A stretch of DNA of 64,000 nucleotides, from contig NZ_SIXI01000007.1 of the NCBI RefSeq assembly GCF_004310865.1, positions 62,001 to 126,000 on the forward strand, given 5' to 3'. Below, in pieces: positions 4,235 through 57,392 of the stretch. The stretch is from Aquabacterium lacunae (GTDB lineage Bacteria > Pseudomonadota > Gammaproteobacteria > Burkholderiales > Burkholderiaceae_C). Numbering within the stretch: position 1 is the stretch's first letter; each line of letters opens with the position of its first letter. Under the pieces are notes generated by a model. That model did not search any database and was not told the DNA's origin. It saw nothing but the letters and a program-made list of their open reading frames with translations. The translations under genes and the position numbers were made by a program.

Positions 4235-4240
4235 GACTAT

Positions 4241-6540: not shown

Positions 6541-6682
6541 GACGTTTGTCTCCCGTGCGTAGGTCTACATCATGCAAGACAAGTTCCACCCTGGCAGCCC
6601 TGGAACCGAGGGTATCCATCAACTTGAGTGTGCGCCACCACACCGCACCCCACTAAGGGGGTGGGTTGTCAGGCGCCTGTCA

Positions 6683-8158: not shown

Positions 8159-8172
8159 GGCAAGGCCCTTTT

Positions 8173-10008: not shown

Positions 10009-10254
10009 GGCAACAACAGCATCAAAGCAGACAGGGGCCCATGATGGGGCGACAGCAGGCCGAGCGTGGAGTGCGAAATGCCCGCTTCACACCTGCCGAC
10101 ACAGTTTCAGGGCGCCTGCTTACACAGCTTGCAACCCGTAACAAGGGGGTGCGCAGCGTGATGTTTGTCACAGCGCACAAGCTCGTTTTGTACACTGTGC
10201 GCCCTTGGCTGCCCAGCCCGCACAACCCCTGTTCAGGGGGGTGGCAGCACAGTT

Positions 10255-11355: not shown

Positions 11356-11449
11356 GGTTCCTCAGCTGTTTTTGAATGGGGGGGACTTGAATGCAAAACG
11401 AAAGCGGCCCGAAGGCCGCTGTGCTGCGCTGGCGTGCGCTGTTCAGCGC

Positions 11450-23333: not shown

Positions 23334-23468
23334 CAACCCAGGTTGTCGGGCGAAGGTGTCGGGTGTGAGCCACGCCCCTCGCCTTTTGCATGGTGGAATT
23401 GGGACAAAGCCCCCCTCGTGAGGGCTAATCCCCTTTCAGCGGGTGAAGTTTTCGCCGATACCTGCTGG

Positions 23469-26560: not shown

Positions 26561-27136
26561 TCAGCCGCGACCGGGGCGCATGCGCGCCAGGAGGCTGTCA
26601 CGGTCAATGAACTGGTGCTTCAGTGCGGCGGCGATGTGCAGCAGGGCCAGCCCCACCAGGGCGAAAGCCGACAACTCGTGAACTTCGCGCAGCACCTGGG
26701 CCAGCTCTTCATTCTTGGCGACCAGATCGGGCAGCGGCAGCACGCCGAACCACACGATGGGGAAGCCTTTGGCCGAGCTGTAGGCCCAACCGGCCAGCGG
26801 CACGATGAAGAACAGCAGGTACATCAGGTGGTGGGTGCCGTGGAAGGCGGCCATTTGCCAGCCCGGCATGTGGCGTTGCACCTCGGTCGGCAGGGCGGGC
26901 GGGCGGTGGGTGACGCGCCACAGCAGGCGCAACACCGACAGGAACAAGATGGTGATGCCCGCCCACTTGTGCAGGTTGATCAGCTTGAGCTTGGTGGGCG
27001 AAAACGGCAGTTCATGCACGTAAAGCCCCATGCCGAAGGCACCCAGGATGGACAGGCCCAGCACCCAGTGCAGCACGATGGCTGGCAGGGTGTAGCGTTG
27101 TGCCTCGCGGTTGGCGACGGGGTTGGCAGCGTTCAT
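26561..27136 (-). CDS. Cytochrome b561 family protein
   Basis: 191 residues with four membrane helices. Histidines suited to heme binding occur at LHWVLG (about 23), LHKWAG (about 55), HHLMYL (about 104) and LLHIAA (about 167), the usual four-helix pattern of the prokaryotic di-heme b561 (CybB type). Such proteins pass electrons from quinol across the inner membrane. It is the first gene of an operon with two YceI genes. It diverges from the diguanylate cyclase gene across 234 bases. Confidence 0.88.
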   Translation of the reverse strand: MNAANPVANREAQRYTLPAIVLHWVLGLSILGAFGMGLYVHELPFSPTKLKLINLHKWAGITILFLSVLRLLWRVTHRPPALPTEVQRHMPGWQMAAFHGTHHLMYLLFFIVPLAGWAYSSAKGFPIVWFGVLPLPDLVAKNEELAQVLREVHELSAFALVGLALLHIAAALKHQFIDRDSLLARMRPGRG

Positions 27137-27370
27137 GGGGCTCGGCTCGTGTTTTTTGTGATGTGGATCATCCTGCCAGAAAGGTTAGGCCCGGTGACAC
27201 CCGTGCAGGTTGCAGGGGCTTGTGCGCACAGTTCAATCGATTTGAATGGTGAGAGGGCCCCTGGCGCGGGTGTGAAGCCTTGCAACAGGCCTCAACCCGC
27301 GGTGCAGAATGCCGAAAACCTGAGCACCGGCGTCTGGTGGACCCACCCTCCCCGCCTTGCGTCGCTCGCC

Positions 27371-28522
27371 ATGACATCTTTCACCCGACGGTTCGGGGAC
27401 GTGCTGCTCGGCACCGATCCCAAACAGCGATTGCGGATCAGCCGCTCGCTGACGGCCGCCAGCGTGTACCTGATCTGCGTGGCGCTCATGGGATACGCGT
27501 GCCTGACAGGCTTCATGGCCTGGCGCGAGGCGGCCGAACTTTCGGCGGCGATCCTGCTGAACGTGATGATCTGGTACGCCATCCTGCGCTCTGGCTTGAA
27601 CAAACGCTTTGCCGACCCGGCCCTGACGCTGCCGCAGATCATGGCCGCGCTCACGGTGATCTCTGGGGCCTACGCGATCACGGGGCCAGTGCATGGTTCG
27701 ACCATGATGCTGCTGGCGCTGGTGCTGGTGTTCGGCATTTTCAACATGCGTGCCCGTGACGCACGGCTGGCCGGTGGCTACACCGTGTTGATCATGGGCG
27801 GCGTGATCGCCTGGAAGGTTCGCTCAGAGCCCGAGTACTACCCGCTGCGACTGGAAGTGGCGCACTTCGTGCTGGTGGCAGCCATCGTGCCCACCATCTC
27901 GTCGCTGGCGGCCCAGTTGTCGTCGCTGCGCGCCAAGCTCCAGGCACAGAAGGAAGAGCTGAGTGTGGCGCTGCAGCGCATCCAGATACTGGCCACCCGC
28001 GACGAGTTGACCGGCCTGTACAACCGCCGCCACATGCTGGAGGTGCTGACCCAGCACCAGAAACGGCTGGAACGCACCGGGCACCACCGCTTTTGCCTGG
28101 CGCTGCTGGACATTGACCACTTCAAGCGCATCAATGACACGCACGGCCATGGCGTGGGTGACGAGGTGCTGCGCGGCTTTGCCCAGGTGGCCGAGTCGGT
28201 GCTGCGCGAGACCGATGTGCTGGCGCGCTGGGGCGGTGAAGAGTTCCTGGTGCTGCTGAACGACACGCAGACCAACCAGGCCAACATCGGCCTGGAACGG
28301 CTGCGTGACCTGCTGGCCCGCACGGCCCTGGTGCCCAACATGCCCGAGCTCAAGCCCACGTTTTCAGCCGGGTTGACGGCTTACGACACCTCGGAGCCCC
28401 TGCACGTGTGCATCGAACGGGCCGACCAGGCGCTGTACCGGGCCAAAGCGGCGGGGCGCAACCGGACCGAAGTGACCCAGCCCCCGGAAACCAGCCCCCA
28501 ACCCCGCAAAGTGATGGGTTGA
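27371..28522 (+). CDS. Membrane-bound diguanylate cyclase
   Basis: 383 residues from the ATG at 27371; the longer upstream frame runs antisense to the cytochrome gene and is rejected. Six membrane helices span about 28-180, then a short coiled coil (182-205). The GGDEF domain begins at ATRDELTGLYNRR and contains an intact active site GGEEF (288-292). The inhibitory product-binding site RETD (279-282) lies exactly five residues upstream. It should therefore make c-di-GMP with feedback inhibition. c-di-GMP commonly controls exopolysaccharide and biofilm genes, which fits the loci in this window. Confidence 0.92.
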   Translation: MTSFTRRFGDVLLGTDPKQRLRISRSLTAASVYLICVALMGYACLTGFMAWREAAELSAAILLNVMIWYAILRSGLNKRFADPALTLPQIMAALTVISGAYAITGPVHGSTMMLLALVLVFGIFNMRARDARLAGGYTVLIMGGVIAWKVRSEPEYYPLRLEVAHFVLVAAIVPTISSLAAQLSSLRAKLQAQKEELSVALQRIQILATRDELTGLYNRRHMLEVLTQHQKRLERTGHHRFCLALLDIDHFKRINDTHGHGVGDEVLRGFAQVAESVLRETDVLARWGGEEFLVLLNDTQTNQANIGLERLRDLLARTALVPNMPELKPTFSAGLTAYDTSEPLHVCIERADQALYRAKAAGRNRTEVTQPPETSPQPRKVMG

Positions 28523-28659: not shown

Positions 28660-30792
28660 ATGACGAGTGCATCGTCTGACCGGGTCCCGGCCGAATTCCA
28701 GAATCTGTTGCTGAACCTCAGCGCACTCGACCTGACCGATGTGGGTCTGGGCGATGCATGCCGCACCTCGGCGCTGACGGCCTTGCGCGACACCACACGC
28801 AGCACCCAGCTGGCGCTGCTGCACCTGCTCGCACCCGAAGAGCACGCCTTGTCGCCGGTGGCATTGTGGTGCTGCGCAAGTGGCGGCGGTATCACCCTGC
28901 CCCGCTGCCCCCAACCCTTGCTGCCCTTGCTGTGGCCCGATCAAGGCCACCTGTTGCTCGACCGCCTGAGCGCAGAAGGCTTTGACCACCCGGCGCTGCG
29001 CGAGCTGCTGGACGGCCCCCGCCCCACCCTGTGGCTGCCTGTGGCCCAGGGCAAACGGGTGGTGGCCTTGCTGGGCCTGGCGCAGCCCGCCGTTGAACTG
29101 GCCCCCGAGGCCCTGCACCAGGCTTTGCGCCCGGCTCTGGCGTGGCTGGGGGTGGCCCTGCATGCCTGGAGCCGCACGCCGCACCGCACCCATGACGCGC
29201 TGGCCCGCAGCCACGCCGATTACCAGCAGCTGTTCGAGGTGGCCGGCGTGGGCATTGGCCGCGTGGCCATCGACGGCACGCTGCTGGACGTGAACCAGCG
29301 TTTTGCCGACATCTGCCGACGCAGCCGCGACAGCATGGTCGGCCTGAACGTGCACGAGCTGACCCACCCCGACGAACAAGCCGTGAGCCAGGCCATGAGC
29401 CAGGCCATGCTGCAGGGCCAGCACGACCGCTACACCCTGGAAAAGCGCTACCTGGCGCCAGGCGGAGACTTCGTGTGGGTGCAGCTGACCGTGGCCCTGG
29501 TGCGCGACGACCAGGGCCGAGCCAAGCACTTCGTCACGGTCATTGAAGACATCAGCCAGCGGCGCCAGTACCAGGAAGCCATCCTGAGTGCGCAGGCTGC
29601 GGAGCGGGCCAGCAAGGCCAAGACCGAGTTCCTTTCGCGCATGAGCCACGAGCTGCGCACGCCGCTGAACGCCATGCTGGGCTTTGCGCAGCTGCTGCGG
29701 GTCGACCCCCGCCACACCCTGAACGAGCCGCAGCGCCAGAAGGTGCAGTACATCGAACAGGCTGGTGCCCACCTGCTGGCCATGCTGACCGATGTGCTCG
29801 ACCTGTCACGCATCGAGGCCGGCAGCCTGCCACTGTCGCTGGAGCCACTGCGCGTGCGCAGTGCCGTGCAGGAGGCCCTGGCCCTGGTACAGCACCAGGC
29901 CCAGGCGCGCAACCTGCTGCTGCATGCCCAGGACATCGACGACAAGGTGCATGTGCGCGCCGACCATGTGCGCCTGCGCCAGGTGCTGGTGAACCTGCTG
30001 AGCAACGCCATCAAGTACAACCGGCCCAACGGGCGGGTGCACATCGAGGTGCAGGTGCTCAAGCCACAGGTGGTCTTTTCCGTCCATGACACGGGAGCAG
30101 GCCTGAGCCCCGAGCAGCAGGCCCACCTGTTCGAGCCTTTCAACCGCCTGGGCGCCGAGCGCAGCGGGGTGGAGGGCACAGGCATTGGCCTGGTCATCGT
30201 CAAGCGCTTGCTGGGCCTGATGAACGGCCGCATCGAGGTCAGCAGTGTGCAAGGGCAGGGGTCGGTGTTCCGCGTGGTCCTGCCCTGGGCGGCGGCCAGC
30301 ACACTGTCGACGGCGGCTGACGGCGCCACCAGCACCCCTGGCACTGCCCGTGGGGCCTTGCTGCCCGGTGTGCCCGCCACGAACGCGGGTGAAACCAACC
30401 GGCCCTGGCGTCTGCTCTACGCCGAAGACAACCCGGTGAATGTGGAGCTGGTGCGGCAGGTGCTGCGCATGCGGCCGCAATGGCGGCTGGAGGTGGCGCT
30501 CAATGGCGCCGAGGCGATCACCATGGCCCTGACTCAGCCGCCCGACCTGCTGCTGCTGGACATGCACCTGGGCGACATGAACGGGCTGGATGTGGCCGAC
30601 CGCCTGGCGCAACACGCGCACACCGCGGGCATCCCGAAGGCAGGGTTGTCGGCCGATGCCATGCCCGACCAGCTCAGGGCTGCACGTGAGCGGGGCATCA
30701 CCACCTACCTGACCAAGCCCCTGGAAGTGGCCAAGCTGCTGCACCTGCTGGACAGCCACGTGGCCGCGCCGGTCACAACGACAGGTCGGTGA
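28660..30792 (+). CDS. PAS-containing hybrid histidine kinase, cytoplasmic
   Basis: 710 residues with no membrane segment or signal peptide. Residues 1-175 have a GAF-like look. A PAS domain with PAC motif follows (about 185-305, ending HFVTVIEDISQRRQ). Then come HisKA with His330 (RMSHELRTPLNA), an ATPase domain with N box LVNLLSNAIKYN and G2 GTGIGL, and a C-terminal receiver with acceptor Asp634 (LLLLDMHLGDMNG) and Lys in TYLTKPLE. The stimulus is unknown. The gene follows the cyclase by 137 bases and its end overlaps the convergent flavin reductase by 20 bases. Confidence 0.9.
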   Translation: MTSASSDRVPAEFQNLLLNLSALDLTDVGLGDACRTSALTALRDTTRSTQLALLHLLAPEEHALSPVALWCCASGGGITLPRCPQPLLPLLWPDQGHLLLDRLSAEGFDHPALRELLDGPRPTLWLPVAQGKRVVALLGLAQPAVELAPEALHQALRPALAWLGVALHAWSRTPHRTHDALARSHADYQQLFEVAGVGIGRVAIDGTLLDVNQRFADICRRSRDSMVGLNVHELTHPDEQAVSQAMSQAMLQGQHDRYTLEKRYLAPGGDFVWVQLTVALVRDDQGRAKHFVTVIEDISQRRQYQEAILSAQAAERASKAKTEFLSRMSHELRTPLNAMLGFAQLLRVDPRHTLNEPQRQKVQYIEQAGAHLLAMLTDVLDLSRIEAGSLPLSLEPLRVRSAVQEALALVQHQAQARNLLLHAQDIDDKVHVRADHVRLRQVLVNLLSNAIKYNRPNGRVHIEVQVLKPQVVFSVHDTGAGLSPEQQAHLFEPFNRLGAERSGVEGTGIGLVIVKRLLGLMNGRIEVSSVQGQGSVFRVVLPWAAASTLSTAADGATSTPGTARGALLPGVPATNAGETNRPWRLLYAEDNPVNVELVRQVLRMRPQWRLEVALNGAEAITMALTQPPDLLLLDMHLGDMNGLDVADRLAQHAHTAGIPKAGLSADAMPDQLRAARERGITTYLTKPLEVAKLLHLLDSHVAAPVTTTGR

Positions 30793-45995: not shown

Positions 45996-46277
45996 ATGCA
46001 GCGCATGGACTGTCGCCCCGCCTGTGCCGCATGCTGCACCGCACCATCGATCAGCAGCCCCCTGCCCGGCCTGCCCCACGGCAAACCGGCCGGGGTGCCT
46101 TGCCCCCAGCTCGACGCCGACCTGCGCTGCCGTTTGTTCGGCCAGCCAGAACGCCCGGCCGTGTGCGGCTCGCTGCAACCCGCGCGGGACATGTGCGGCG
46201 AAACCCGCGAACAGGCCATGGTGTGGCTGCACCACCTCGAGGCACAGACCTCGCCTGGCGTGACCACCTGCGCATGA
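45996..46277 (+). CDS. YkgJ family cysteine-cluster protein
   Basis: 93 residues. The N-terminus [20 protein letters not shown] carries the CxxxCxxCC cluster of the YkgJ (zinc- or iron-chelating) family, with further Cys at [13 protein letters not shown] and [12 protein letters not shown]. This small protein is common in betaproteobacteria; its function is unknown, though metal binding is expected. A start at 46005 would remove three residues. The stop is 7 bases before the histidine kinase start, so the two may be cotranscribed. Confidence 0.85.
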
Positions 46278-46284
46278 GCCTGGC

Positions 46285-48444
46285 ATGAGCCCCGCCTGGT
46301 CCCGCCCCACCCCGCGCCACCTGGCCTGGTTGACCGCTCATGGCCTGGTCTGGATCGTGGCAGCCTGCATCGTGGGCTGGGCCGTGCAGGCCACGGCCCC
46401 TTCACCGCTGTGGCACTGGCAGGCCGCACGCAACCCTTTCCTGGTGATCGACCGTCAAGAGATCGACCTGGCTGCACTGGAAACCCCGCAAGGCCAGGTG
46501 ACCCTGACGCCGCAATGGCACGGCCTGCCACCCCACGTGCAACCCAACCTGACCGAGAAGCACCGCTTCGAGGCCATGGAAGAACAACTGATCGCCTGGA
46601 CGGGCCAGCCCCTGGCCTGGATCGACACCGACGGGCAACGCTGGCCCATCGCCTGGCAGCCCATGGGCTGGAAGGGCATTCCCACCATCAGCTGGATGCT
46701 GCTGCTGACCAGCGTGCTGAGCTGGCACGTGGCGATGTGGAACCTGGCCCAGAACCCGCGCGACAACACCACGCGCCTGTACGTGATCGCGGGCGTGAGC
46801 TTCACCGTGGGCAACCTGATCCGCGCCTGGCTCAGCGCCCGCCCCTGGGGCCTGCCCACCCTGGCGTGGGACTTCCAGTTCATCGTGTCGCACACCTGCG
46901 GGCTGGCCTTTTTGGGGTGCCTGCTGCTGATGGTGCTGCGCATTCCACGGCCGGTGATTTCCAAGCCCATGCAATGGGGCGTGATCGGCACCATCGCCAC
47001 CATCGAGTTGTCGGATGCGATGCATTGGGTGCCCGACCGTCTGATGGCCACCTACCAGTGGCCGATGGCCGGGCTGGCCATGCTGGTGCTGCTGGCACAG
47101 GCCGGCATGGCCTGGCACTGCCGACACGACCCGGCCTACCGCGCCGCGCTGCGCTGGATCGGGCTGGTGTTCGCCATGGCGGTGATCCCGCCAGCGGTGC
47201 TGTACGCGGCATGGGCCACCGGCTTCATCCACACCAACCTGTACGACCCGGTGCTGGTGGCCCCCACCCTGGGCTACTTCGCGTTCTCGGCCTTGTTGCA
47301 CCGTGACCGCCTGCTGCGCCTGGAAAGCTGGCGTTCGCGCACCACCTCGTTCTGGATCACGGGCCTGATCACCCTGGGGCTGATGATCACGCTGCTGGTG
47401 CGTGGCGACGACTGGATGGGATGGGCGCTGGGGGTGACCGCCATGGCCTTTCCATGGCTGTACCTGGCCGTGCGTGCGGTGCTGACCTACCGCACGCCGC
47501 CGACGGCCCCCGAGCGCCTGCAGGCCCTGATGCCCGACGTGATGACCATCACCGTCAGCCAGGCCGGGCGCGAGGCCCTGGCCGATGCCTGGGTGGCCTT
47601 GTTGCAAAAGGCCTTCAGGCCCGAATCGGCCATCACCGTGCACACGAGCGACGACCCGACGACCGAGCACGCGCCCGCGGGCCCAACCGACGACGCGGTG
47701 CGCATTTCGCGCGACGGCAGCCTGCTGCATGTGCCGCACCTGCCGCGTGGCGAGGTGCAACTGCAGCGCCGGCAACCGTTCACCCCCACCGACCGCGAAC
47801 TGGCCGAAGCCCTGTGGCGCCTGACCTCGCACGGCCTGATCACCAAAGACTCGTACGAAGCCGGGGTCAAGCGCGAGCGCCGACGCATCGCGGCCGACCT
47901 GCACGACAGCATTGGCGGGCGCCTGCTGCACCTCAGCCAGACTGCCGCCTCGACCCAGCAGCGCCAGTACGCGATCAACACGCTGGCCGACCTGCGCAAC
48001 ATCACACGGGGGCTGAGCAAAGAAGGCGCGGCCTGGTCACAGGTGCTGGCCGACCTGCGCCACCAGGTGCAACGCGAACTGGACGCGGTCGATGTGGACC
48101 TGCACTGGGCGTGCGACTGGCCTGCCGAAGCCCTGGCGCAGTTTGCCGACGGCGAAGAAGCCGTGGCGCTGCATTGCGTGGCCAGCGAGTTGGTGCGCAA
48201 CGCCCTCCAGCACGCACAGCCCGACCGCCTGAGCATGCACTGGGGCACCACAGCACAAGGGCACCGCGAACTGCGAGTGCAGCATGGCGGCACAGTGAGC
48301 GAGCCCTCACTTTGGTCGGCAGGCCTGGGCGTGAACTCGATCCGCCGCCGCTTCCTGGACCGTCAAGGTCAGTGCGAATGGGCCCTGGTGGGCGGTGAAC
48401 TGGTGTTCACCGGACAATGGCCGCCCAAGGCTGACCAGCCCTGA
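46285..48444 (+). CDS. Membrane sensor histidine kinase, NarL-partner (HisKA_3) type
   Basis: 719 residues. A first membrane helix (about 14-36) and a periplasmic loop to about 130 are followed by about nine more helices to 400. A cytoplasmic linker leads to the HisKA_3 dimerisation motif RRRIAADLHDSIGGRLLHL with phosphoacceptor His540. The ATPase part has the N box SELVRNALQHA and a compact G box (SAGLGVNSI). Such kinases phosphorylate LuxR-type response regulators, and one is encoded at 49427. A sensor of the same layout but without the kinase core is encoded at 54772. Confidence 0.88.
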   Translation: MSPAWSRPTPRHLAWLTAHGLVWIVAACIVGWAVQATAPSPLWHWQAARNPFLVIDRQEIDLAALETPQGQVTLTPQWHGLPPHVQPNLTEKHRFEAMEEQLIAWTGQPLAWIDTDGQRWPIAWQPMGWKGIPTISWMLLLTSVLSWHVAMWNLAQNPRDNTTRLYVIAGVSFTVGNLIRAWLSARPWGLPTLAWDFQFIVSHTCGLAFLGCLLLMVLRIPRPVISKPMQWGVIGTIATIELSDAMHWVPDRLMATYQWPMAGLAMLVLLAQAGMAWHCRHDPAYRAALRWIGLVFAMAVIPPAVLYAAWATGFIHTNLYDPVLVAPTLGYFAFSALLHRDRLLRLESWRSRTTSFWITGLITLGLMITLLVRGDDWMGWALGVTAMAFPWLYLAVRAVLTYRTPPTAPERLQALMPDVMTITVSQAGREALADAWVALLQKAFRPESAITVHTSDDPTTEHAPAGPTDDAVRISRDGSLLHVPHLPRGEVQLQRRQPFTPTDRELAEALWRLTSHGLITKDSYEAGVKRERRRIAADLHDSIGGRLLHLSQTAASTQQRQYAINTLADLRNITRGLSKEGAAWSQVLADLRHQVQRELDAVDVDLHWACDWPAEALAQFADGEEAVALHCVASELVRNALQHAQPDRLSMHWGTTAQGHRELRVQHGGTVSEPSLWSAGLGVNSIRRRFLDRQGQCEWALVGGELVFTGQWPPKADQP

Positions 48445-48469
48445 GCGGCCTGGCGCGCCAGGATCAGGC

Positions 48470-49219
48470 TTACGACTTGCGGCGACGGGTCACCGCCATC
48501 ACCGTGGCCACGCTGGCGATCATCAAGGCATAGATGCTGGGTTCCGGCACGGCAGCCACGACACCAGAGCCCACACCAGAGCCCGAAGACGCCACCGGCG
48601 AGAACGTCGCCGTGTACATCAGGCTGGCGCCGACGCTGCCGTAATTGGCATTTGGCAACGAGCCCATGCCGCTGCTGAAGGTGTAGGCTGCACCGGCATC
48701 AGGCGCAGACAGCCCCCCATCATTCGAAGCCAGGATGAGGCTCAGGCGGTGGTGCAGCGGCGAATTGAGCGGCAGGATGGCGGGCGCATTCGCACCAAGT
48801 TCGCCCGTCAGCACCGCGGCATACGTGCCAGGGCCCAGCGTCAGATTGATGTTGTTGAACGACAAGGCCGAATCGTTGAATCCGTAGCTGTCGAAAGCAC
48901 TGCCCACCTCCTGGCCCAGGTTGAAGCCGACCGGCGACGTCGCGTCGGCCACCACTTCGCGGATGGACAAGCGAACCGAGCCCTCAGTCCCCCCAGCCAC
49001 CTCAAACCCCCAGGAATCCAGCACGCGAGTCTGGGCCTGAGAGAAGGTCTGAAACGCCGCAATCCCGGCGATCATGGTGTCGACGCTCATGAGTCCGCCA
49101 TCGGCATAAAAAATGGGCGCGCCATTGTTGCTGTAGCTCTGTGCTTGCGCCTGGGCAACCGACCCACAAGCGGCCAGGCCAGCCAGCGCCAGGGCGCGCA
49201 TCGAACGGGATGACATCAT
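48470..49219 (-). CDS. PEP-CTERM domain protein beside the two-component genes
   Basis: 249 residues from the ATG at 49219, with AAAGGAG 7 bases upstream (a second ATG follows directly). A signal peptide ends near AQAQ (about 26). The body has no recognised domain. The tail is AVPEPSIYALMIASVATVMA then TRRRKS. It lies between the kinase and regulator genes on the opposite strand, and its promoter region is shared with the response regulator and carries two copies of the TCCCGA-N4-TCGGGA repeat. It is a likely target of that system (inference). Confidence 0.84.
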   Translation of the reverse strand: MMSSRSMRALALAGLAACGSVAQAQAQSYSNNGAPIFYADGGLMSVDTMIAGIAAFQTFSQAQTRVLDSWGFEVAGGTEGSVRLSIREVVADATSPVGFNLGQEVGSAFDSYGFNDSALSFNNINLTLGPGTYAAVLTGELGANAPAILPLNSPLHHRLSLILASNDGGLSAPDAGAAYTFSSGMGSLPNANYGSVGASLMYTATFSPVASSGSGVGSGVVAAVPEPSIYALMIASVATVMAVTRRRKS

Positions 49220-49287
49220 CGAGTAACTCCTTTCAACGTTTTGATACATCGACCCGGGCATGGTGGTTGCCACCGATTGCCCCACAC

Positions 49288-49305
49288 ATCCCGACAACTC
49301 GGGAT
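49288..49305. promoter_or_regulatory. Inverted repeat 1, candidate response-regulator operator
   Basis: ATCCCGA-CAAC-TCGGGAT is a perfect 7-base inverted repeat with a 4-base spacer. It lies in the divergent gap between the PEP-CTERM gene and the LuxR-type response regulator. The same element recurs at 49359 and 50132. Confidence 0.6.
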
Positions 49306-49358
49306 CGGGGCCCCACACCCCCCGGAACACGTGGGCCCCACGCCCCCCCCGCCCCTGC

Positions 49359-49376
49359 ATCCCGATGCCTCGGGAT
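49359..49376. promoter_or_regulatory. Inverted repeat 2, candidate response-regulator operator
   Basis: ATCCCGA-TGCC-TCGGGAT has the same arms and spacing as repeat 1 but a different spacer, which argues that the arms, not the spacer, are what is conserved. It ends 51 bases before the response-regulator start codon. Confidence 0.6.
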
Positions 49377-49426
49377 GGAGCGGCATGCAGCAGATGCCGG
49401 ACACTTGGGCATCAGCGCAGCACACC

Positions 49427-50104
49427 ATGACCACCCCCAGCCACCCCCAGCACGTCCTCATCGTCGAGGACCAACCCGACGCACTGCGCCTCATGCAGCA
49501 ACTGGTCGAGGCGCTGTTCGACACGGGCAACCACCTGTGCGCGCCCGACCTGGCGCAAGCCCAGGGCCACCTGGGCACCAGCTACGACCTGGTGCTGTGC
49601 GACCTGCAACTGCCCGATGGCCTGAGCATCGACTGGCTGCGCCAGTACCGCCAGCGCCACCCCGACACCTGGATCGTGGTCAGCACCCTGTACGACGACG
49701 ACGACCTGGTGTTCGCCTCGCTGCGCGCCGGGGCCGACGGCTACCTGCTCAAGACCGACAGCCCGGCCGTGCAGCGGGACACCCTCAGCCGCCTGCTCAA
49801 TGGCGAGCCGCCCATGTCACCGTCGATCGCCCGCAAGGTGATGCGGCACTTCCGGGCCCAGCCCGAGCCCACACCCGCCGGGCTGCCGCTGGCCACGCTC
49901 ACCCCGCGCGAGCAAGAGGTGCTCAGCCTGATCGCTCAGGGCCTGAGCGCCAAGATGGTGGCCGCTGAACTCAACACCAGCCGCTACACGGTCAATGACC
50001 AGATCAAGAGCATCTACCGCAAGCTGGGCATCGGCAACCGCAGCGAGGCCACGGCCGAGGCCATGCGCCTGGGCCTGATCCAGGCCCCCACCCCCCTGCG
50101 TTGA
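49427..50104 (+). CDS. NarL/LuxR-type response regulator
   Basis: 225 residues from the ATG at 49427. The receiver domain has the acidic pair at VEDQ (14-15), the phosphorylation site Asp59 (LVLCDLQLPDG) and the conserved Lys in YLLKTD. The C-terminal LuxR helix-turn-helix is LTPREQEVLSLIAQGLSAKMVAAELNTS... through VNDQIKSIYRKLG. The kinase at 46285 is the natural partner. Inverted repeats lie both before and after the gene, suggesting autoregulation and control of the PEP-CTERM gene and of the lipoproteins that follow. Confidence 0.92.
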   Translation: MTTPSHPQHVLIVEDQPDALRLMQQLVEALFDTGNHLCAPDLAQAQGHLGTSYDLVLCDLQLPDGLSIDWLRQYRQRHPDTWIVVSTLYDDDDLVFASLRAGADGYLLKTDSPAVQRDTLSRLLNGEPPMSPSIARKVMRHFRAQPEPTPAGLPLATLTPREQEVLSLIAQGLSAKMVAAELNTSRYTVNDQIKSIYRKLGIGNRSEATAEAMRLGLIQAPTPLR

Positions 50105-50131
50105 GGGCAGGCTGCGGCGTTTTCACGCCGC

Positions 50132-50149
50132 GTCCCGACAACTCGGGAT
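50132..50149. promoter_or_regulatory. Inverted repeat 3, candidate response-regulator operator
   Basis: GTCCCGA-CAAC-TCGGGAT differs from repeat 1 at a single outer base and shares the spacer. It lies in the 123-base gap upstream of the lipoprotein gene at 50228. Some similarity to repeat 1 continues beyond the right arm (GGGCCCC-like sequence). Confidence 0.6.
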
Positions 50150-50227
50150 GGGCCCCGCACACGGCCCCTGGAAACATCTGGACACACGCTGTCATCGCGT
50201 TGTCCTCACTTGTTTCAGGAGTCGTTC

Positions 50228-51307
50228 ATGCAGTCCATCGCACGCGCCCGTCGCACCCCCTTGGCCACCGTGGCCCTCGCCGTGGCCACCTGTGCCGCCC
50301 TGACCGCCTGCGGCGGCGGGGGCGACGCCACCGACAGCGGCAACACCCCTGTGCGGGCCAACCGCGCCACCGCCAGCATGGGCAACTTCGTGCCCGAGGG
50401 CCAGGCCCAGCTGGTGGTCAACCTCAGCGCCTGCACGCGCTCGCCAGACGGCGGGATCAACAACCAGGAGGCCGTGAACAACGCCACCCTGACCTTCACG
50501 GCCGAAGGCGACATCGTGCTGCGCGGGGCGGTGGGCAGCGCCACCACCACCACCGACCTGTACCGCATCAACGCCAGCGAAACCAACCTGGAGCGCGAGA
50601 TCGAGTACTACGCGCTCAACAACCCCAACGGATCCGGGCTGCGGGCCAGCTACGTGCTGACGCTGGACGACGACGACACCCGCTACGTCACGGCCTCTGC
50701 CAACCCGAACACGACCGGCTCCCTGGAGATGGAAAACGCCGACCACGTGTACAGCTGCACCGTGCCGGCCGGCGCTTTCGCCTTCCCCGACAACGTCCTG
50801 GGCAACCGCCTGGCGGTGTTGGCCGACGGCACCACCCGCACCGATCCCGTTTACCTGCGCGACAGCGCAGCGCTGACCCAAGGCACCCGGCAGATCACCT
50901 GGGACAACGCCCTCGGCGCCGCCACCGACCCGCTGTCGAGCGCCAGCCAACGCTACGCCGACACCCGCTTCCTGCGCGTGGACTGGAGCGGCACCACAGC
51001 CATTGCCTCGGGCAGCAGCAGCCTCAATGGCAGCTACAGCGCGCTGAATTCGCCCCTGCAAGGGGCCAGCCCCAGCGCCTACGAGAGCTACTTCAGCGAG
51101 CGCAGCTTCCCGAACCGGGGTGGTACCGCGTACGAGTTGCGCGCCGTGCTGACCTGGGGCCAGGGTGCGCCCGGCGTGTCCTACGACCTGCGCATGGCGC
51201 GCTTCGGCACCGACCTGTATCCCTACGCCGCGATGACCACGGCACCCAACCCGGCACCCGCGCCCAGCGTCCCGGCTGCACCGGCCGGACCCGCTGCGTC
51301 GCTCTGA
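50228..51307 (+). CDS. Lipoprotein of unknown function, family part A
   Basis: 359 residues from the ATG at 50228, with AGGAG about 7 bases upstream. The lipobox ALTACGG gives Cys28. The mature part carries NRATASMGNFVPEGQAQLVV and later LRGAVGSATTTTDLY; these and the DWSGTTA...YDLRMARFG segment recur in the first 385 residues of the protein at 52363. The C-terminus is Pro/Ala-rich. No known domain is recognised; the composition suggests a beta-rich envelope protein. It is the first of three consecutive lipoprotein genes after the response regulator. Confidence 0.78.
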   Translation: MQSIARARRTPLATVALAVATCAALTACGGGGDATDSGNTPVRANRATASMGNFVPEGQAQLVVNLSACTRSPDGGINNQEAVNNATLTFTAEGDIVLRGAVGSATTTTDLYRINASETNLEREIEYYALNNPNGSGLRASYVLTLDDDDTRYVTASANPNTTGSLEMENADHVYSCTVPAGAFAFPDNVLGNRLAVLADGTTRTDPVYLRDSAALTQGTRQITWDNALGAATDPLSSASQRYADTRFLRVDWSGTTAIASGSSSLNGSYSALNSPLQGASPSAYESYFSERSFPNRGGTAYELRAVLTWGQGAPGVSYDLRMARFGTDLYPYAAMTTAPNPAPAPSVPAAPAGPAASL

Positions 51308-51350
51308 CAACACCGCACGCCAAACCCCTGGACCCTTCACCGAGCATCAC

Positions 51351-52316
51351 ATGACACGCCGTACCCCGTTTGCCTTGACCCTCCTGAGCACCCTGCTGCT
51401 GACCGCTTGTGGCGGCGGTGGCGACACCACACCCAATGCCGTCACCCCCGTGCCCAGCTACCTGGAGGGCCCTGTGGGGCAGCTGGTGGGCCTGGCCCCC
51501 GAGGTGCTCGCCCTGGGCACCTACACGGTCAGCAACTGTGTGGACGCCAGCAACAACAGCGTCTCGCGCAAGCTTCGCCTGATGGAAGATGGCAGCGTGG
51601 TCTGGCTCGACGCCGCCAACAACGACGCCGTGCTGGCCCGCTTCACCCCCAGCACCACGGCCATCCAGTACCGCATCATGGAGGTGTACGACAACGGCAG
51701 CTACTACCACGAGGTCAACGAATACGCCAGCGGCGGGGCACGCACGCTGCAGATCCGCTTCGACACCGAAGATGTCATCGTGAACACCAGCACGGTGCAG
51801 GACACCTGCTCAAGCTCGCCGCAAGTGCCCACCGTGCTCAACATCTCGGTGGCATTGAACGACGCCATCGTGGCCCGCAAGCTGAGCTCGGCCGTGCGCT
51901 CCACCGGCGCCGACCCCGCCACCGGCAGCCTCAGCCAGGACGAGACCATCTCCACGCTGGATGCGGCCACCAGCACACAGGTGACCTATCGGGTACGCCG
52001 CAGCGTGTCGGCCACCGGTGTCATCAGCCACCAGATCGACAACAACGCCCCTGTGGTGTGGACCAACTGGATCACCGCCCTGCAAGCCAGCAACGGCACC
52101 CGCGGTTACTACTCCGAAGTCTGGGACACGTTCACGGGCACCAGCAGCAGCGCGGCCAACGCGTCAGGCACGCCCGCCAACCCGCGGATCTCGGTCGAAC
52201 TGGCCCACCCCACGCTGCGCCTGTGGCCCGGCAGCGGCAACGCCTTCGTGATGCTCCAGCGCGACACCGCGTCACAGGCCAACGGCCAGGCATTCATGGT
52301 CTCGCTGCCCCAGTGA
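51351..52316 (+). CDS. Lipoprotein of unknown function, family part B
   Basis: 321 residues. The lipobox LLLTACGGGG gives Cys20. The segment RLMEDGSVVWLDAANNDAVL followed by ARFTPS, about 78-103, matches the region around residue 405-425 of the protein at 52363. A later WTNWITALQASNGTRGYYSE block also has a counterpart there (GTNWIGQSNARYEES). This gene therefore corresponds to the C-terminal half of that larger protein. It starts 43 bases after part A and is probably cotranscribed. Function unknown. Confidence 0.78.
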   Translation: MTRRTPFALTLLSTLLLTACGGGGDTTPNAVTPVPSYLEGPVGQLVGLAPEVLALGTYTVSNCVDASNNSVSRKLRLMEDGSVVWLDAANNDAVLARFTPSTTAIQYRIMEVYDNGSYYHEVNEYASGGARTLQIRFDTEDVIVNTSTVQDTCSSSPQVPTVLNISVALNDAIVARKLSSAVRSTGADPATGSLSQDETISTLDAATSTQVTYRVRRSVSATGVISHQIDNNAPVVWTNWITALQASNGTRGYYSEVWDTFTGTSSSAANASGTPANPRISVELAHPTLRLWPGSGNAFVMLQRDTASQANGQAFMVSLPQ

Positions 52317-52362
52317 CCGAGCGCCCTCGAACCACGGACTGAACTTCCACAGGCCAACGCCC

Positions 52363-54240
52363 ATGCCCCACACCCACCACGCCCACCACGCCCACTCGGC
52401 CCACCCTCGCCGCACCCCTTTGGCCCTTGCCACGGCCAGTTTCCTGGGCACCCTGCTGCTGGCCGCCTGCGGCGGCGGCAGTGGCAACGACACGCCTGCC
52501 AGCAGTGGCGACACCGTCTCGGCACGCGAAAGCCGCGCCACCGCCAGCGCAGGCTATTTCGTGCCTGACAACCAATCCCAACTGGTCGTCAACCTGAGCA
52601 ACTGCACCCAGTCCACCCGAACCAACAGTGCCACCACGCCAGTGTCATCGGCCACCCTGACCATCACCGCGACGGGCAATGTGGTGTTCCGTGGGGCCGT
52701 GGGTTCTGCCACCAGTGCCACCGACCTGGCGCAGGTCAGCAGCGCAGAACCCGGAGAGCGCCTGCTCAGCTTCGAGGCCAGCAACCGAGCCAACAACGCG
52801 GGTGTGGACGTGCGCTACGACATGGGCGTATCCAATGAAAACGGCGTGCAGATCGACGCCTACACCACCACCAGCGCAGCAGGCGAGCTGCAGGTCACGG
52901 CGGGTTCGCTGTTCTACGAATGCGCCATCCAAGCCAACGCCTTCAGCCTGCCCGCCAGCCTCACCGCCACCCGCCTCGCACTGTTCACCGCTGGCGCGAC
53001 GAATGCGGTGGCAGACAACCTGACCAGCGAGGTCAGCCTGATCGCCACCAGCACCTCGGCCACCTGGGATGGATCGTTTGGAACGCCCTGGGACGCGCTG
53101 GACGGCAATGACATCCAGTACGCCAGCAACCGACATGCGCGGCTGGACTGGTCAGGCAGCACGGCCACCCTGGCCACCAGCGACCGCCGCAACGGCAGCT
53201 TCACCCCCCGCGCCCTGCCGCCCAGCACACCGGACGCGCGTGAGTACACCGCCAGCTACCAGGAGGTCTACAGCAACGGAGGCCGCTACGCAGGCAACCC
53301 GTTCAGCACCCTCAGCGCCCAGGTTCTGTACCCGACCGACGCAGCAGCGTCCTACAACCTGCGTGTGCGTCGAATCGGCAATGTGATCTACCCGCAAAGG
53401 GTGCTTGGCTCGGTCAACTTCACGTACACCAGCGTGCGCAGCCGGTTGGGCGGCGGTGACCTCAACGGACTGCCCAACGCCTTTTACGCCAGCAGCAACA
53501 CACCCATCACCCTGAGCACTTGTCAGCGGGGCATTCAATCGGTGCAGCGCCGCATCGCGTTCTTGCCGGACCAGCGCATCATCTGGCTGGACGGCCAGAA
53601 CAACGAGCTGGCGCGCTTCACGCCCGATGACAACACGCATCAGCGCCGCGAGTTCTCTCTGCTGGGCGGCAACAACACCACGCTGCGAGCCACGTTCAAG
53701 GTGTACGCCGACGGTGTGGCGGCGGTGCAAGACATGCCCAGCCAACGCCTGGAGATCGGCGCCACACAGGGTCTGATCGAGGTCACGTACCCGGAGGGCA
53801 ATGTCACGGTCACCGACGTGTGCACGGCGCCGGCCCTGCTGCCCCAACCTGAACTGACGCTCAACAGCCGCATCACCTCGGTGCTGGACTTTGGCGGCAA
53901 TGCCAACCTCACCACCAACACCAGCGGCTACACCTGCCCGAACGACAGCGCCAACACCAGCTGGCGCCACCGCATCGGCACCGACGGGCAGTTTGCGACG
54001 GACACCACGTTGCCGGGCAATGCCGCGTCGGGCTTCGTCGGCTGGTCGGGCGGCACCAACTGGATCGGCCAGAGCAATGCGCGTTACGAGGAAAGCTACG
54101 ACGCGCAACCGGGCGCAAGCTCCGGAAGCGCGGGGATGGCCCACCCGGCCACCACCGTGCGCGCCAACTGCGCCAGCGTGCTGCAGATTCAGGGTAGCGC
54201 CAACGCGCCGAGCGGCATGACCCTCGTCAGCGCCCCTTGA
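52363..54240 (+). CDS. Large lipoprotein, natural fusion of parts A and B
   Basis: 625 residues. A His-rich start (MPHTHHAHHAHSAH) precedes the hydrophobic segment and lipobox LLLAACGGG (Cys36). Residues about 55-385 resemble the whole of part A; from about 386 to 600 they resemble part B, so one polypeptide carries both units encoded separately just upstream. Only one lipid anchor remains, which means the B unit has lost its own. The start has no strong ribosome-binding site, so expression may depend on the upstream genes. The end overlaps the convergent YchJ-type gene by 14 bases. Confidence 0.78.
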   Translation: MPHTHHAHHAHSAHPRRTPLALATASFLGTLLLAACGGGSGNDTPASSGDTVSARESRATASAGYFVPDNQSQLVVNLSNCTQSTRTNSATTPVSSATLTITATGNVVFRGAVGSATSATDLAQVSSAEPGERLLSFEASNRANNAGVDVRYDMGVSNENGVQIDAYTTTSAAGELQVTAGSLFYECAIQANAFSLPASLTATRLALFTAGATNAVADNLTSEVSLIATSTSATWDGSFGTPWDALDGNDIQYASNRHARLDWSGSTATLATSDRRNGSFTPRALPPSTPDAREYTASYQEVYSNGGRYAGNPFSTLSAQVLYPTDAAASYNLRVRRIGNVIYPQRVLGSVNFTYTSVRSRLGGGDLNGLPNAFYASSNTPITLSTCQRGIQSVQRRIAFLPDQRIIWLDGQNNELARFTPDDNTHQRREFSLLGGNNTTLRATFKVYADGVAAVQDMPSQRLEIGATQGLIEVTYPEGNVTVTDVCTAPALLPQPELTLNSRITSVLDFGGNANLTTNTSGYTCPNDSANTSWRHRIGTDGQFATDTTLPGNAASGFVGWSGGTNWIGQSNARYEESYDAQPGASSGSAGMAHPATTVRANCASVLQIQGSANAPSGMTLVSAP

Positions 54241-54673
54241 TCGCCCTTGACGGGCTGATGTCACCCGCGCCGGTGTCGGTGCCGGTGAGGGCCGCCGCGT
54301 ATAGCCAGCGCCCCGCTTCGCGCACGAAGCGGCTGCGCTCGGCAATGCGCTGCGCGCGCCCGCCCACCTTGCACCGCGCCACGAACTCCACCCACCCTTC
54401 ATCGGGCCCCAGCAGCCCATGCCCCTTGACCGTCAGGCCCAGCCACTTCAAACCGGGCTCGGGCGGCTCGATCTGCGCCGGTCGGTGGGGCTCGGCCCAA
54501 GTCGCCAGCAGGTAATCGCGGCGATCCAGCACAAAGGCCGTGTAACGCGAGCGCATGAGCGCTTCGGGTGTGGGTGCGGCCAGGTGTTCGGGGCCCGTGT
54601 GGTAGCGGCCACAACAGGCTTGCAGGGTGGCGCCAGAGCCGCAAGGGCAGGCGCGGGTGTCCAGGTCGGTCAT
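54227..54673 (-). CDS. YchJ family protein with SEC-C zinc-binding motif
   Basis: 148 residues. The N-terminus has the SEC-C motif ACPCGSGATLQACCG, a small zinc-binding unit, followed by the YchJ-type domain (LMRSRYTAFVLDRRDYLLATW, about 39-59). The family is widespread in proteobacteria and related to NTF2-like folds; its cellular role is not defined. It is convergent with the fused lipoprotein gene and divergent from the sensor-like gene at 54772. Confidence 0.9.
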   Translation of the reverse strand: MTDLDTRACPCGSGATLQACCGRYHTGPEHLAAPTPEALMRSRYTAFVLDRRDYLLATWAEPHRPAQIEPPEPGLKWLGLTVKGHGLLGPDEGWVEFVARCKVGGRAQRIAERSRFVREAGRWLYAAALTGTDTGAGDISPSRAIKGR

Positions 54674-54771
54674 GTGGGCAAGACAGGGCGCAAGGCCCCC
54701 GGAAACAGCCCCCTATTCTGACGCCTGCACCGGGCGCCAGCGCAGTGCACGGGCCCCTACACTGCAGGCCC

Positions 54772-56376
54772 ATGATCCGTCCCACCCTGCCCCGCCGTCC
54801 GGCTGCCGCCCCCCTGAGCTGGGGCTGGCTGATGCTGCTCGGGCTGGGCGGCTTGCTGGTGGCGGTGGTGGTGCTGACCTCGGCCCTGGCCCTGGCACCC
54901 CGGCCTGACTGGGTGTGGGTGGCCGGCCAGGGGCCCCATGTCGAGACACCGAACGGCCGGCTGCGCATCGCAGCACTGGACGTCGGCGGCAAGCGCCACC
55001 CCACGCACGCCGGATGGCACCCCCCTTCCCTGGACACGCAGCGCACGCCACAGGCCCGGCAGCTGTCGGTCGAGGTGGAGCAGCTGCTCGCCCGCGTGGA
55101 AGGCCGCCCGGACCTGGCCTTCATCGACGACGACGGCGCCCGCTGGCCTTTGCGATGGGAAGCCCAGGGCCTGCCCGGGCTGCCGTGGCAAATGGGACTG
55201 ATGCTGCTGACCGCCCTGATGGTCTGGCAGGTGGCCGTGCGGCACTGGCAGGCCCGCGCTGAGCACCCCCAACACCGCCTACACGGGCTGATCGGCCTGG
55301 CTCTGTCGCTGGACCTGATCGTGCGGGCCTGGCCCCTGGCACGCCCATGGGCCTGGCCGTCCGGCGGGCTGGAGCTGTCGCTGCTGGCCAGCCAGGCCTT
55401 CACCACGGCCTACCTGGGCGGCACCCTGCTGTGGTTCATGCGCTGGTTGAACCCCCGCGTGCCAGGTTGGGCGACCGTGGCATTGCTGGGCGTGGTCGGT
55501 GTGCTCGGGCTCTCTGTCATGCTGCAGCTCAGCCCCAGCTACCACTGGTGGATCTTGACCATGCCACTGGGCACCGTGGGCCTGCTGGTGGGCATCGGCA
55601 CACTGATGGCCTGGGCACGTGCCTCCGAAGACAGCTCCATGCGACAAGGGCTGCGCTGGTTCTTTGCCAGCCTGGCGCTGGCGGCCATCGTGCCTGGCAC
55701 CATCCTGGCCCTGCAGCCCGCCGAACTGGCCGGGGCGGGCTTCGACAACCTGATCCGCTGCGCCGTCGCACTGCCCTATGTGGGCATGATGGCCCTGCTC
55801 GACACCCAGCGTTTGCGCCACCTCGAAGTGCTGTCATGGCGCGCCTGGACGTGGCTGCTGGCGCTGCTGGGCTCGTTCTGCTTCGTGGTCAGCCTGTTGT
55901 GGCTGGGGGGGCCCTGGAGCAGCCCGGTGCTGGTGGCCAGCAGCCTGTCCTTGCCATGGTTCTACCTGCTGGCGCGCAGCTGGCTGATGCCGACAGAACA
56001 GCGCGACCCGGGCGAACGCCTGGAATCATTGCTGCCTGGCCTGCTCGACCTGGGCAAGCTGGGTCGCGGGCCCGACGGGCAGGAGCGGTGGTTGATGGCC
56101 CTGGACCGCGCCTTTCACCCCCGCCACCTGATCGTCGAAGGCCGCGACGAAGGGCCCGAGCGACGTGTGCAGATGGAGCGAGGCGGACGCACCTTGCGCG
56201 TGCCAGCGCTGGGCCAAGGCTGGGTGAGGCTGGAAGGCGCCCAAGGCGGCAGCCGGCTGTTCAACGACCACGACAAGCTGTTGGCCCAGACCCTGTGGCA
56301 GCTGGCCAGTCAAAGCGCCGATTTCGGCAGCGGACGCATGGGGCTGACCGACAGCGAGGGCCGCTTCGTGCCCTGA
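54772..56376 (+). CDS. Sensor-kinase-like membrane protein lacking the kinase core
   Basis: 534 residues from the ATG at 54772. A first helix (about 18-40), a periplasmic segment containing FIDDDGARWPLRWEAQGLPG, then about nine helices to 425 and a cytoplasmic linker mirror the kinase at 46285 (there WIDTDGQRWPIAWQPMGWKG). The linker region LAQTLWQLASQSADF aligns with LAEALWRLTSHGLIT of the kinase, just before its phosphoacceptor helix. Here the protein stops 15-20 residues later, with no HisKA_3 or ATPase motif. The following DNA encodes an opposite-strand gene, so the core has been lost rather than shifted out of frame. Confidence 0.78.
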   Translation: MIRPTLPRRPAAAPLSWGWLMLLGLGGLLVAVVVLTSALALAPRPDWVWVAGQGPHVETPNGRLRIAALDVGGKRHPTHAGWHPPSLDTQRTPQARQLSVEVEQLLARVEGRPDLAFIDDDGARWPLRWEAQGLPGLPWQMGLMLLTALMVWQVAVRHWQARAEHPQHRLHGLIGLALSLDLIVRAWPLARPWAWPSGGLELSLLASQAFTTAYLGGTLLWFMRWLNPRVPGWATVALLGVVGVLGLSVMLQLSPSYHWWILTMPLGTVGLLVGIGTLMAWARASEDSSMRQGLRWFFASLALAAIVPGTILALQPAELAGAGFDNLIRCAVALPYVGMMALLDTQRLRHLEVLSWRAWTWLLALLGSFCFVVSLLWLGGPWSSPVLVASSLSLPWFYLLARSWLMPTEQRDPGERLESLLPGLLDLGKLGRGPDGQERWLMALDRAFHPRHLIVEGRDEGPERRVQMERGGRTLRVPALGQGWVRLEGAQGGSRLFNDHDKLLAQTLWQLASQSADFGSGRMGLTDSEGRFVP

Positions 56377-56390: not shown

Positions 56391-57392
56391 TCAGGCCCCC
56401 GAACGGCCATGGCGCTGCTCATTGCGCAGCAGTGTGAGGTACACCTCGCACACACCTCGCAAATACACCGCAGTGGGCAGCACCAGGGCCACAGCAAACA
56501 CCACCCCGCCACCAATGGCCGCGGCCGCGGTGTGGGCCACGGCCTCCTTGGGCACAGCCGCCGCGTTGATGGACTGCAGACCGCCGCCAAACAACCCCAC
56601 CATGAGCACCTCGGGAGGCAGGTCGATGCCCAGCATCCACACCGACGCCTCAGCCATGACCCGGCCGCCCAGCATGACGACCAAGCTGGTGCCCGCACCC
56701 ACCAGACCCGTGAGGCCACTGAGCGCCACGGCCATCACCGCGGCCTGCAGCAACTGATGACGGATCAAGCCCAGCAACGTGCGAAAACTCTGCCAGGAGG
56801 ACGCGCCCAGCCACACACTGGGCCCGGTCAGCGGGCCTGCAACAGCCGCACCGGCCACCGCCACCACGCCCACCACGCCCACCGTGAGCGGAACCACCCC
56901 AGCGAACAGCCAGGGCCCCAGCTTGGGCAGACCCGACAGCCACAACAGACCCAACAGCCCCCCGGCCAGCGCAGCCGCCACCAGCACCATGCCGGCCAAA
57001 GCCACGAGCACCCGGTGGGCAATGCCCAGGGCGTCTTCCAGGGCGTCGAACACATCACGCGGTGGGCGGCCGAGTGCCCGGTCCATCATCAGCAGACCCG
57101 CGGCGTTGCTGCCGTAGAAGGCGATGAACAGCCCGACTGCGGCCTGAAACACCGCCCAACTGGTCTCACCTCGCGCCAGCGAAGCACGGGCCGTGGCCAA
57201 CGCCAGCCCGCCGCCTGACAGAGCGCTCAGCAGCACATACAGGGCCCGCCCCTCCCGCACGGCATCGATGCTGGACAACACCCTCGCCAGAGCCTGCCAC
57301 CAGTCGAAACCGCCCCCGTGCCGCACCATGGCGGCACCGCCTTCAGGTGGAAACGGCGGCGAAACGACCGGCGAAAAACGGGATTCGGACAT
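56391..57392 (-). CDS. Hypothetical integral membrane protein
   Basis: 333 residues. After a polar N-terminus of about 45 residues there are roughly six to seven hydrophobic segments, many Gly/Ala/Val-rich. WQALARVLSSIDAVREGRALYVL (in two parts) is the only soluble segment of note. No transporter signature is recognised and no homologous family comes to mind with confidence. It is convergent with the truncated sensor gene (14 bases) and divergent from the RNA-binding protein gene. Confidence 0.7.
   Translation of the reverse strand: MSESRFSPVVSPPFPPEGGAAMVRHGGGFDWWQALARVLSSIDAVREGRALYVLLSALSGGGLALATARASLARGETSWAVFQAAVGLFIAFYGSNAAGLLMMDRALGRPPRDVFDALEDALGIAHRVLVALAGMVLVAAALAGGLLGLLWLSGLPKLGPWLFAGVVPLTVGVVGVVAVAGAAVAGPLTGPSVWLGASSWQSFRTLLGLIRHQLLQAAVMAVALSGLTGLVGAGTSLVVMLGGRVMAEASVWMLGIDLPPEVLMVGLFGGGLQSINAAAVPKEAVAHTAAAAIGGGVVFAVALVLPTAVYLRGVCEVYLTLLRNEQRHGRSGA

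Follow-up and report, generated by a model that had tools for sequence, protein, structure and literature searches.

In Rubrivivax gelatinosus, biofilm matrix production is repressed by the two-component system EmbRS, which joins EmbS, a sensor of 745 amino acids (aa) with ten predicted transmembrane (TM) helices, to EmbR, a LuxR-type regulator of 245 aa; in the part of the report available to us, its authors considered embS to be primarily limited to Rubrivivax and Methylibium (PMC3684757). Many PEP-CTERM genes have upstream regions outside the sigma-54 class described for them, as stated in the accessible portion of Haft 2006 (PMC1569441). Unequal sensors are also on record: FasB and FasC of group A Streptococcus form a heterodimer in which one ATPase domain is dispensable, according to the excerpt at hand (PMC12675982). 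Here we describe a locus at positions 46285 to 56376 of a 64,000-nucleotide stretch of the Aquabacterium lacunae genome (the window), which encodes a membrane sensor, a NarL/LuxR-type response regulator, a PEP-CTERM protein, three lipoproteins and a kinase-less twin of the sensor. Judged from the portion of the report seen, EmbRS is the published system nearest to it in build, a likeness by description. We lean, on slightly better than even terms, towards reading the locus as an EmbRS-like two-component module, specific to this lineage, by which the surface protein coat is set. The locus is real and coherent, and lineage-specific in the material examined, with a credible predicted operator and a plausible regulon.

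Every gene named in the original prediction, which was made from the DNA letters, is present where it had been placed; ychJ, which lies between the last lipoprotein gene and the twin sensor, is not mentioned there. Six genes stand between the gene of a CxxCxxCC protein (45996-46277, + strand) and ychJ (54227-54673, -; YchJ_M-like, SEC-C): the sensor P0001 (46285-48444, +; 719 aa), the PEP-CTERM protein P0006 (48470-49219, -), the regulator P0002 (49427-50104, +; 225 aa) and the lipoproteins lip1 (50228-51307, +), lip2 (51351-52316, +) and lip3 (52363-54240, +). The twin sensor P0011 (54772-56376, +; 534 aa) is located past ychJ, outside this six-gene run. The likely start of P0006 is at 49219, behind AAAGGAG; the translated version starts at 49249. 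P0006 is oriented opposite to both P0001 and P0002, and therefore the genes do not form one operon.

The original prediction had also pointed to inverted repeats in the gaps flanking the regulator gene. These are real, and they are copies of one palindrome, ATCCCGA-N4-TCGGGAT, at 49288, 49359 and 50132 (no strand assigned). Copy A (ATCCCGACAACTCGGGAT, 49288-49305) lies 68 base pairs (bp) upstream of the P0006 start at 49219, copy B (ATCCCGATGCCTCGGGAT, 49359-49376) 50 bp upstream of the regulator start, and copy C (GTCCCGACAACTCGGGAT, 50132-50149, one mismatch) 78 bp upstream of lip1. At up to two mismatches the window has three palindromes versus 0.12 expected, and none of 100 shuffles reaches three. 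The window belongs to C62, a 188-kb contig in a genome of 3.9 Mb (3.897 Mb) and 64 contigs. Genome-wide, there are three exact sites, five with at most one mismatch and nine with at most two, against simulated expectations per genome of 0.000, 0.098 and 4.4, respectively (first-order Markov model, 40 Mb, dinucleotide frequencies of the window). At the loosest threshold the five sites outside the main four are about as many as the 4.4 expected, and a reversed control pattern gives one. The third exact copy, site D (C62:49900), sits 61 kb away from the locus, in the gap of a divergent gene pair (genes at C62:48935-50635). It is 58 bp upstream of a PEP-CTERM gene (C62:49976, 26.0 bits) and 107 bp upstream of the other gene of the pair, whose PEP-CTERM match is below the cut-off (18.1 bits). 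Four of the five best sites are intergenic and stand before the regulator gene, lip1, P0006 and the distant PEP-CTERM gene; the fifth (C55:158059, one mismatch) falls inside an open reading frame (ORF). Because the same rare palindrome occurs upstream of these genes and almost nowhere else in the genome, P0002 plausibly controls the lipoproteins and the PEP-CTERM protein. The palindrome is a candidate operator of P0002 and lends the proposed regulon its first sequence support; the earlier claim that the pair controls lipoproteins and a sorted surface protein is thereby plausible, as far as regulator and regulon go, rather than proven. In Desulfovibrio, most response-regulator sites found are inverted repeats of 4-6 bp with 3-8 bp between them, in the excerpt seen (PMC3333781).

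The palindrome may instead serve another DNA-binding protein, or be a hairpin or small repeat, in which case the targets of P0002 would lie elsewhere and its neighbours would be coincidental. We regard this as rather unlikely. The tie between palindrome and P0002 rests on sequence, three of the four sites have CAAC/GTTG as a common spacer, a feature not needed by a pure dimer operator, and, as in duplicated DNA, A, B and C have partly similar flanks: in three comparisons, the observed score is reached by 9/300 shuffles for the right flanks of A and C, 4/300 for the left flanks of B and C and 7/300 for the left flanks of A and B. However, the genome holds four good copies, where many would be expected of a repetitive extragenic palindromic (REP)-like repeat, and the flanks of D resemble no other site beyond shuffles. 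Moreover, sites A, B and D sit between divergent genes, not a place to expect a terminator, and the congeneric loci examined (loci, not whole genomes) carry no exact site; indeed, the ten loci with an exact palindrome among the 160 collected all belong to the A. lacunae genome itself. A terminator or sigma-70 explanation of A to C was rejected, since a scan around them gave no hits. In the regulator loci of relatives, one site with up to two mismatches was found, in L083/L075, in an earlier and smaller locus set. The spacer length is constant: the half-sites TCCCGA-Nx-TCGGGA with another spacer (0-12) do not occur in the window, in the C62 region L095 or in 30 PEP-CTERM loci.

P0002 is the LuxR-type regulator that had been predicted, with Pfam matches to GerE (55.8 bits) and Response_reg (54.3 bits). 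In the alignment it retains the acidic pair, the Asp, the Ser/Thr and the Lys that have established roles in receiver domains. No sigma-54 domain was detected in it among 13 listed families, and its match to the EpsA family TIGR03020 reaches 38.9 bits against a cut-off of 170 and covers the helix-turn-helix part only. The PEP-CTERM gene between kinase and regulator is likewise borne out, as the motif of P0006 scores 22.9 bits over a cut-off of 20.7. The genome encodes an exosortase, XrtB (295 bits, cut-off 275), and P0006 thus combines the two marks of an exosortase substrate. XrtB, EpsF and an EpsG-like kinase are all in the window, the XrtB/EpsF cluster lying at its start. With 49 PEP-CTERM matches in the genome (47 over the cut-off, 18 on contig C62) and this XrtB/EpsF cluster, matrix control is a reasonable role for the locus.

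PrsR-type regulation of P0006 was among the readings rejected; its leader holds one sigma-54-like TGGCAACCACCATGC, which did not appear in the other leaders tested. A second box, GGGGCA(A)TCGGTGGC(GT)AACC, occurs in two leaders, that of P0006 (49265-49283, -, in the window) and that of the gene to the left of site D (5846-5865, -, in L095); it begins 64 and 72 bp before the respective starts and was found nowhere else in the window, in L095 or in the 30 PEP-CTERM loci. Common 10-mers in PEP-CTERM upstream regions gave nothing striking in 24 of these 30 loci, the other six having been dropped with no ORF assigned. L095 also encodes, over 4061-11411 (C62:48060-55410), about nine exported proteins in a row, the majority carrying PEP-CTERM motifs; next to this run is a low-GC region that leads in the direction of the exopolysaccharide genes with which the window begins. 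Two hybrid-type histidine kinases and a GGDEF protein, at 23343-25367, 26615-28522 and 28660-30792 between the exosortase cluster and the locus, are other candidate matrix regulators.

The sensors are unusual. The original prediction described P0001 as a HisKA_3 membrane kinase; the gene, its H-box and its N-box are present, but the Pfam HisKA_3 match is below the cut-off (19.6 versus 24 bits) and the G1-box Asp is lost. No HATPase_c match was reported for P0001 in the Pfam scan. Of four scanned relatives, three match HisKA_3 at 20.9-26.1 bits and one has no match. P0001 keeps His540-Asp541 in the H-box and Asn639 in the N-box, all three invariant in 54/54 aligned relatives. The G1-box position is His667 in the alignment, where relatives have Asp (51/54) or Asn (3/54), and Val671 stands where 50/54 have Gly. 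The G1-box Asp contacts adenine; P0001 is at best an atypical kinase and may not be active. In an AlphaFold2 model from a 24-row alignment (predicted local distance difference test, pLDDT, 81.5), one TM helix is followed by a periplasmic alpha/beta domain (39-126), nine further long hydrophobic helices, and the DHp and ATPase domains. We read the ten long hydrophobic helices as TM, and residues 408-500 as a GAF-like fold. In a Foldseek search with this model, phytochrome and LOV kinases rank ahead of DesK structures, which also number among the better matches.

The predicted second sensor with the membrane layout of the kinase is confirmed in P0011, which is 28% identical to P0001 over 501 aa of the sensory part. 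It ends after the GAF-like domain, without DHp or ATPase domain. A tree of 50 sensor regions places them as sisters (100/100), to be read with caution given the long branch of P0011. Only five of 150 family genomes match P0011, its own and four weakly (E 2e-9 to 2e-4). Since P0001 lacks the G1 Asp and P0011 lacks the DHp and ATPase domains, neither sensor looks like a normal kinase. A paralogue of P0001 elsewhere in the genome (L064) has an intact G1 box, and the phosphate for P0002 might come from such a source. It is possible, though doubtful, that neither local sensor is a conventional kinase and that P0001, with its His kept and abnormal ATP binding, and P0011 form a membrane receptor complex withdrawing phosphate from P0002 or relaying to it the phosphate of another kinase, a four-site regulon then switching a species-specific coat of lipoproteins and PEP-CTERM proteins. 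In three relatives (L070, L072 and L075, of genomes G435, G226 and G424), the kinase has Asn in place of the G1 Asp and also lacks the Gly two places beyond the conserved Gly; because of these three, altered ATP sites may recur within this sensor clade.

The lipoproteins begin with the lipoboxes LTAC, LTAC and LAAC (lip1, lip2 and lip3), each followed by GGG, and their genes are separated by 43 bp (lip1-lip2) and 46 bp (lip2-lip3). lip1 resembles the N-terminal half of lip3 (36% identity over 332 aa, z 43.8) and lip2 its C-terminal half (z 11.3), so that lip3 is a two-domain version of lip1 plus lip2. Alignment reveals no relation between lip1 and lip2 (z 2.7), between lip2 and the N-half of lip3 (z -0.8) or between the two halves of lip3 (z -0.1). 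The "three related lipoproteins" of the original prediction are thus related through lip3, but are really two domain types, N in lip1 and C in lip2, and a protein with both. None of the three has a Pfam or NCBIfam match above the cut-off or a TbpB-type match, and phmmer with lip3 against PDB sequences returned nothing up to E = 1. A predicted lip3 structure was unusable (two-sequence alignment, pLDDT 28.7) and no lipoprotein fold is claimed. Searches with lip3 as the query, lip1 and lip2 not being searched alone, found no full-length relative in related genomes. Among 150 family genomes four matched, its own and three with short stretches of no more than 117 residues, of which two lie at the signal peptide; among 42 genus genomes the matches were its own genome and, at the signal peptide, one stretch of 56 residues. 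A plasmid origin of lip3 was discarded, the plasmid search giving no match.

The chromosomal setting is conserved. The CxxCxxCC gene, which forms the left border of the insertion, is present in 41/42 and ychJ in 40/42 genus genomes, that of A. lacunae included. We opened 20 congeneric loci of the 41 other genomes, and the order mnmG-CxxCxxCC-ychJ is kept in all 20; rsmG is seen in 19, and one stretch begins inside mnmG. The kinase, P0006, the regulator, lip1-lip3 and the twin are absent from 20/20 of these loci, one of whose contigs ends before the place of the twin is crossed. Between the CxxCxxCC gene and ychJ, the seven congeneric loci read carry the same membrane protein, a fatty acid hydroxylase in the one tested, and an SDR-like gene was read in the place of the twin in four. 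Two loci have other genes between mnmG and the CxxCxxCC gene. Another PEP-CTERM protein of the window, P0007 (45290-45934, +), is not specific to the block, as relatives lie in this interval in 7/20 loci (two at 30% identity). Because the block and the twin are missing from congeneric loci with conserved neighbours, they seem to have been added in this lineage, to the two sides of ychJ; that every other congener lost them is a less simple reading than gain here. Base composition resembles that of the surroundings. Past the twin, ARAGORN called a tRNA-Ile(GAT) at 57029-57123 (-), inside a conserved membrane-protein gene (56391-57392); our guess is a false call.

The original prediction had named the lack of a conserved neighbourhood in related genomes as an outcome that would refute it. 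With the block absent from congeneric loci and lip3 without a full-length relative, this is what was found for the gene set, but it does not extend to the wider family of kinases and regulators. Across 84,980 species, pattern scans matched 37 stretches for the lipoprotein pair and 162 for the sensor pair and confirmed no relative; each scan is built on two short peptide patterns, which distant relatives would escape. The absence of the block from the congeneric loci opened, together with the loss of the G1 Asp in P0001 and of the kinase domain in the twin, would also suit a decaying duplicated locus whose set is disappearing. We give this little credence. The ORFs of the block are all intact, with codon-position GC of coding type (0.76-0.93 at position 3). 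P0011 ends 14 bp away from the stop codon of the next gene, which is convergent, and no kinase remnant lies between them. Furthermore, His540, Asp541 and Asn639 are intact in P0001, and three palindrome copies are exact.

The kinase family itself is widespread. Kinases related to P0001 (about 24-30% identity) are common at both family and order level, and many of them are accompanied by a similar regulator; in the family search 102/150 genomes matched, with many of the matches confined to the kinase domain. The tree has a 31-row clade (100/100) that includes L064, a 17-row clade that holds both P0001 and P0011 (94/83), and two further clades. The 31-row clade, whose regulators have an insert, we take for EmbS-like, and it is separate from that of P0001; if it is EmbS, then EmbS would be distributed far more widely than Rubrivivax and Methylibium. 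Its kinases often stand beside genes that we take, from their sequences, to be surE-, pcm- and nlpD-like. Of the 18 P0001-type loci opened with flanks, 14 have kinase and regulator adjacent. Three of these 14 (L062, L078 and L079) carry a second kinase, which may be of the BmfSR type known from R. gelatinosus. In L063, L079 and L083, from three genomes, an exported protein family with no Pfam match (c5) recurs beside the kinase-regulator pair.

On plasmids, P0001 matches 46 records, and the eight listed are alphaproteobacterial. Three were opened, from Shinella (L155), Sulfitobacter (L156) and Sagittula (L157), and each has a related kinase, a NarL-type regulator and a gene of a surface lipoprotein assembly modifier (SLAM) within about 3 kb, possibly a regulated SLAM system; two also carry a glycine-linker lipoprotein. 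In one of these lipoproteins, a TbpB barrel match reaches 23.9 bits, just below the cut-off of 26. The module might accordingly monitor surface-lipoprotein assembly, with the sensor answering lipoprotein traffic and lip1-lip3 as cargo. The three plasmid loci speak for this, as does a lipoprotein gene within about 5 kb in 7 of the 14 P0001-type loci with adjacent regulator (L055, L062, L063, L079, L083, L155 and L157). We nevertheless hold it to be improbable. This proximity is not above background (7/14 versus 5/9 in the other clade) by a lipobox count that is crude, missing the lipoproteins of L062 and L083, which were added by eye, and including false ones; the other clade also has regulators, though the distance rule scored none as adjacent. 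In addition, the genome holds no SlipAM above the cut-off (best 14.9 versus 22 bits), lip1-lip3 lack a TbpB-type match, and the plasmid link comes from 3 of 46 records.

We propose the following for the EmbRS-like module that we prefer. P0001 would read an envelope signal through its periplasmic and membrane parts. We infer that P0002 binds ATCCCGA-N4-TCGGGAT, located 50-78 bp ahead of the nearest start codons, and would thereby control, whether as activator or repressor, its own gene, the lip1-lip2-lip3 operon, the divergent P0006 and the PEP-CTERM gene that lies roughly 15 kb from the XrtB/EpsF cluster. The twin, whose likeness to P0001 is limited to the sensing part and the GAF-like domain, would most likely pair with P0001 and damp or re-tune it, presumably as a heterodimer. 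Several points weigh against this proposal. The G1 box of P0001 is degenerate, and P0001 and P0002 are separated by an opposing gene, unlike the adjacent pairs in 14 of the 18 P0001-type loci. The predicted regulon is drawn from sequence; copies A to C could be duplicated stretches, given their partly alike flanks. The only gene region outside the locus with the palindrome is site D, where one of the two genes is sub-cut-off. Finally, the neighbourhood is not conserved among congeners, and there are no close relatives to offer a comparative footprint of the palindrome.

If the proposal holds, the palindrome would be a second, sigma-54-independent candidate operator for PEP-CTERM genes, common to surface lipoproteins and tied to a nearby two-component regulator, and it would make the switching of such coats directly testable. 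The catalytically deviant sensor pair would offer a compact natural case of signalling without normal kinase activity, and the kinase-regulator pairs near SLAM genes on plasmids suggest a theme meriting a wider survey.

The original prediction did not recognise the set as a described system. This holds for the gene set, as the titles and opening lines of abstracts in the literature searched describe neither it nor the motif, but the build resembles EmbRS. As far as the available text of each report goes, five comparisons can be made. EmbRS shares with this locus a ten-TM sensor (from the model in our case), a LuxR/NarL-type partner and its occurrence in Burkholderiales, and it controls the extracellular matrix, the compartment expected of PEP-CTERM proteins; unlike the EmbRS operon, the pair here is interrupted by an opposite-strand PEP-CTERM gene, has a twin without kinase and shows an altered G1 box (PMC3684757). 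BmfSR of R. gelatinosus is alike in its LuxR-type regulator without the 22-aa insert and in matrix control (PMC3684757), and this block has no second kinase of the BmfSR type. PrsK/PrsR also exerts two-component control over PEP-CTERM genes through a common upstream DNA element, but PrsR is sigma-54-interacting and its element is a sigma-54-type promoter motif (PMC1569441), whereas P0002 is of NarL type. FasBCA, like GacS/RetS cited with it, has two sensor-kinase-like proteins for one regulator, a likeness of build, and a competent partner there supplies the kinase activity (PMC12675982), whereas neither local sensor here looks competent. The plasmid SLAM-linked pairs have a kinase of the same family (23.7-28% identity), a regulator and, in two of three, a lipoprotein, but they differ in the SLAM gene and the intact G1 Asp. 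While the overall build is already known, what appears to be new is a variant two-component locus with an unusual sensor pair and a palindrome linking its regulator, lipoproteins and PEP-CTERM genes.

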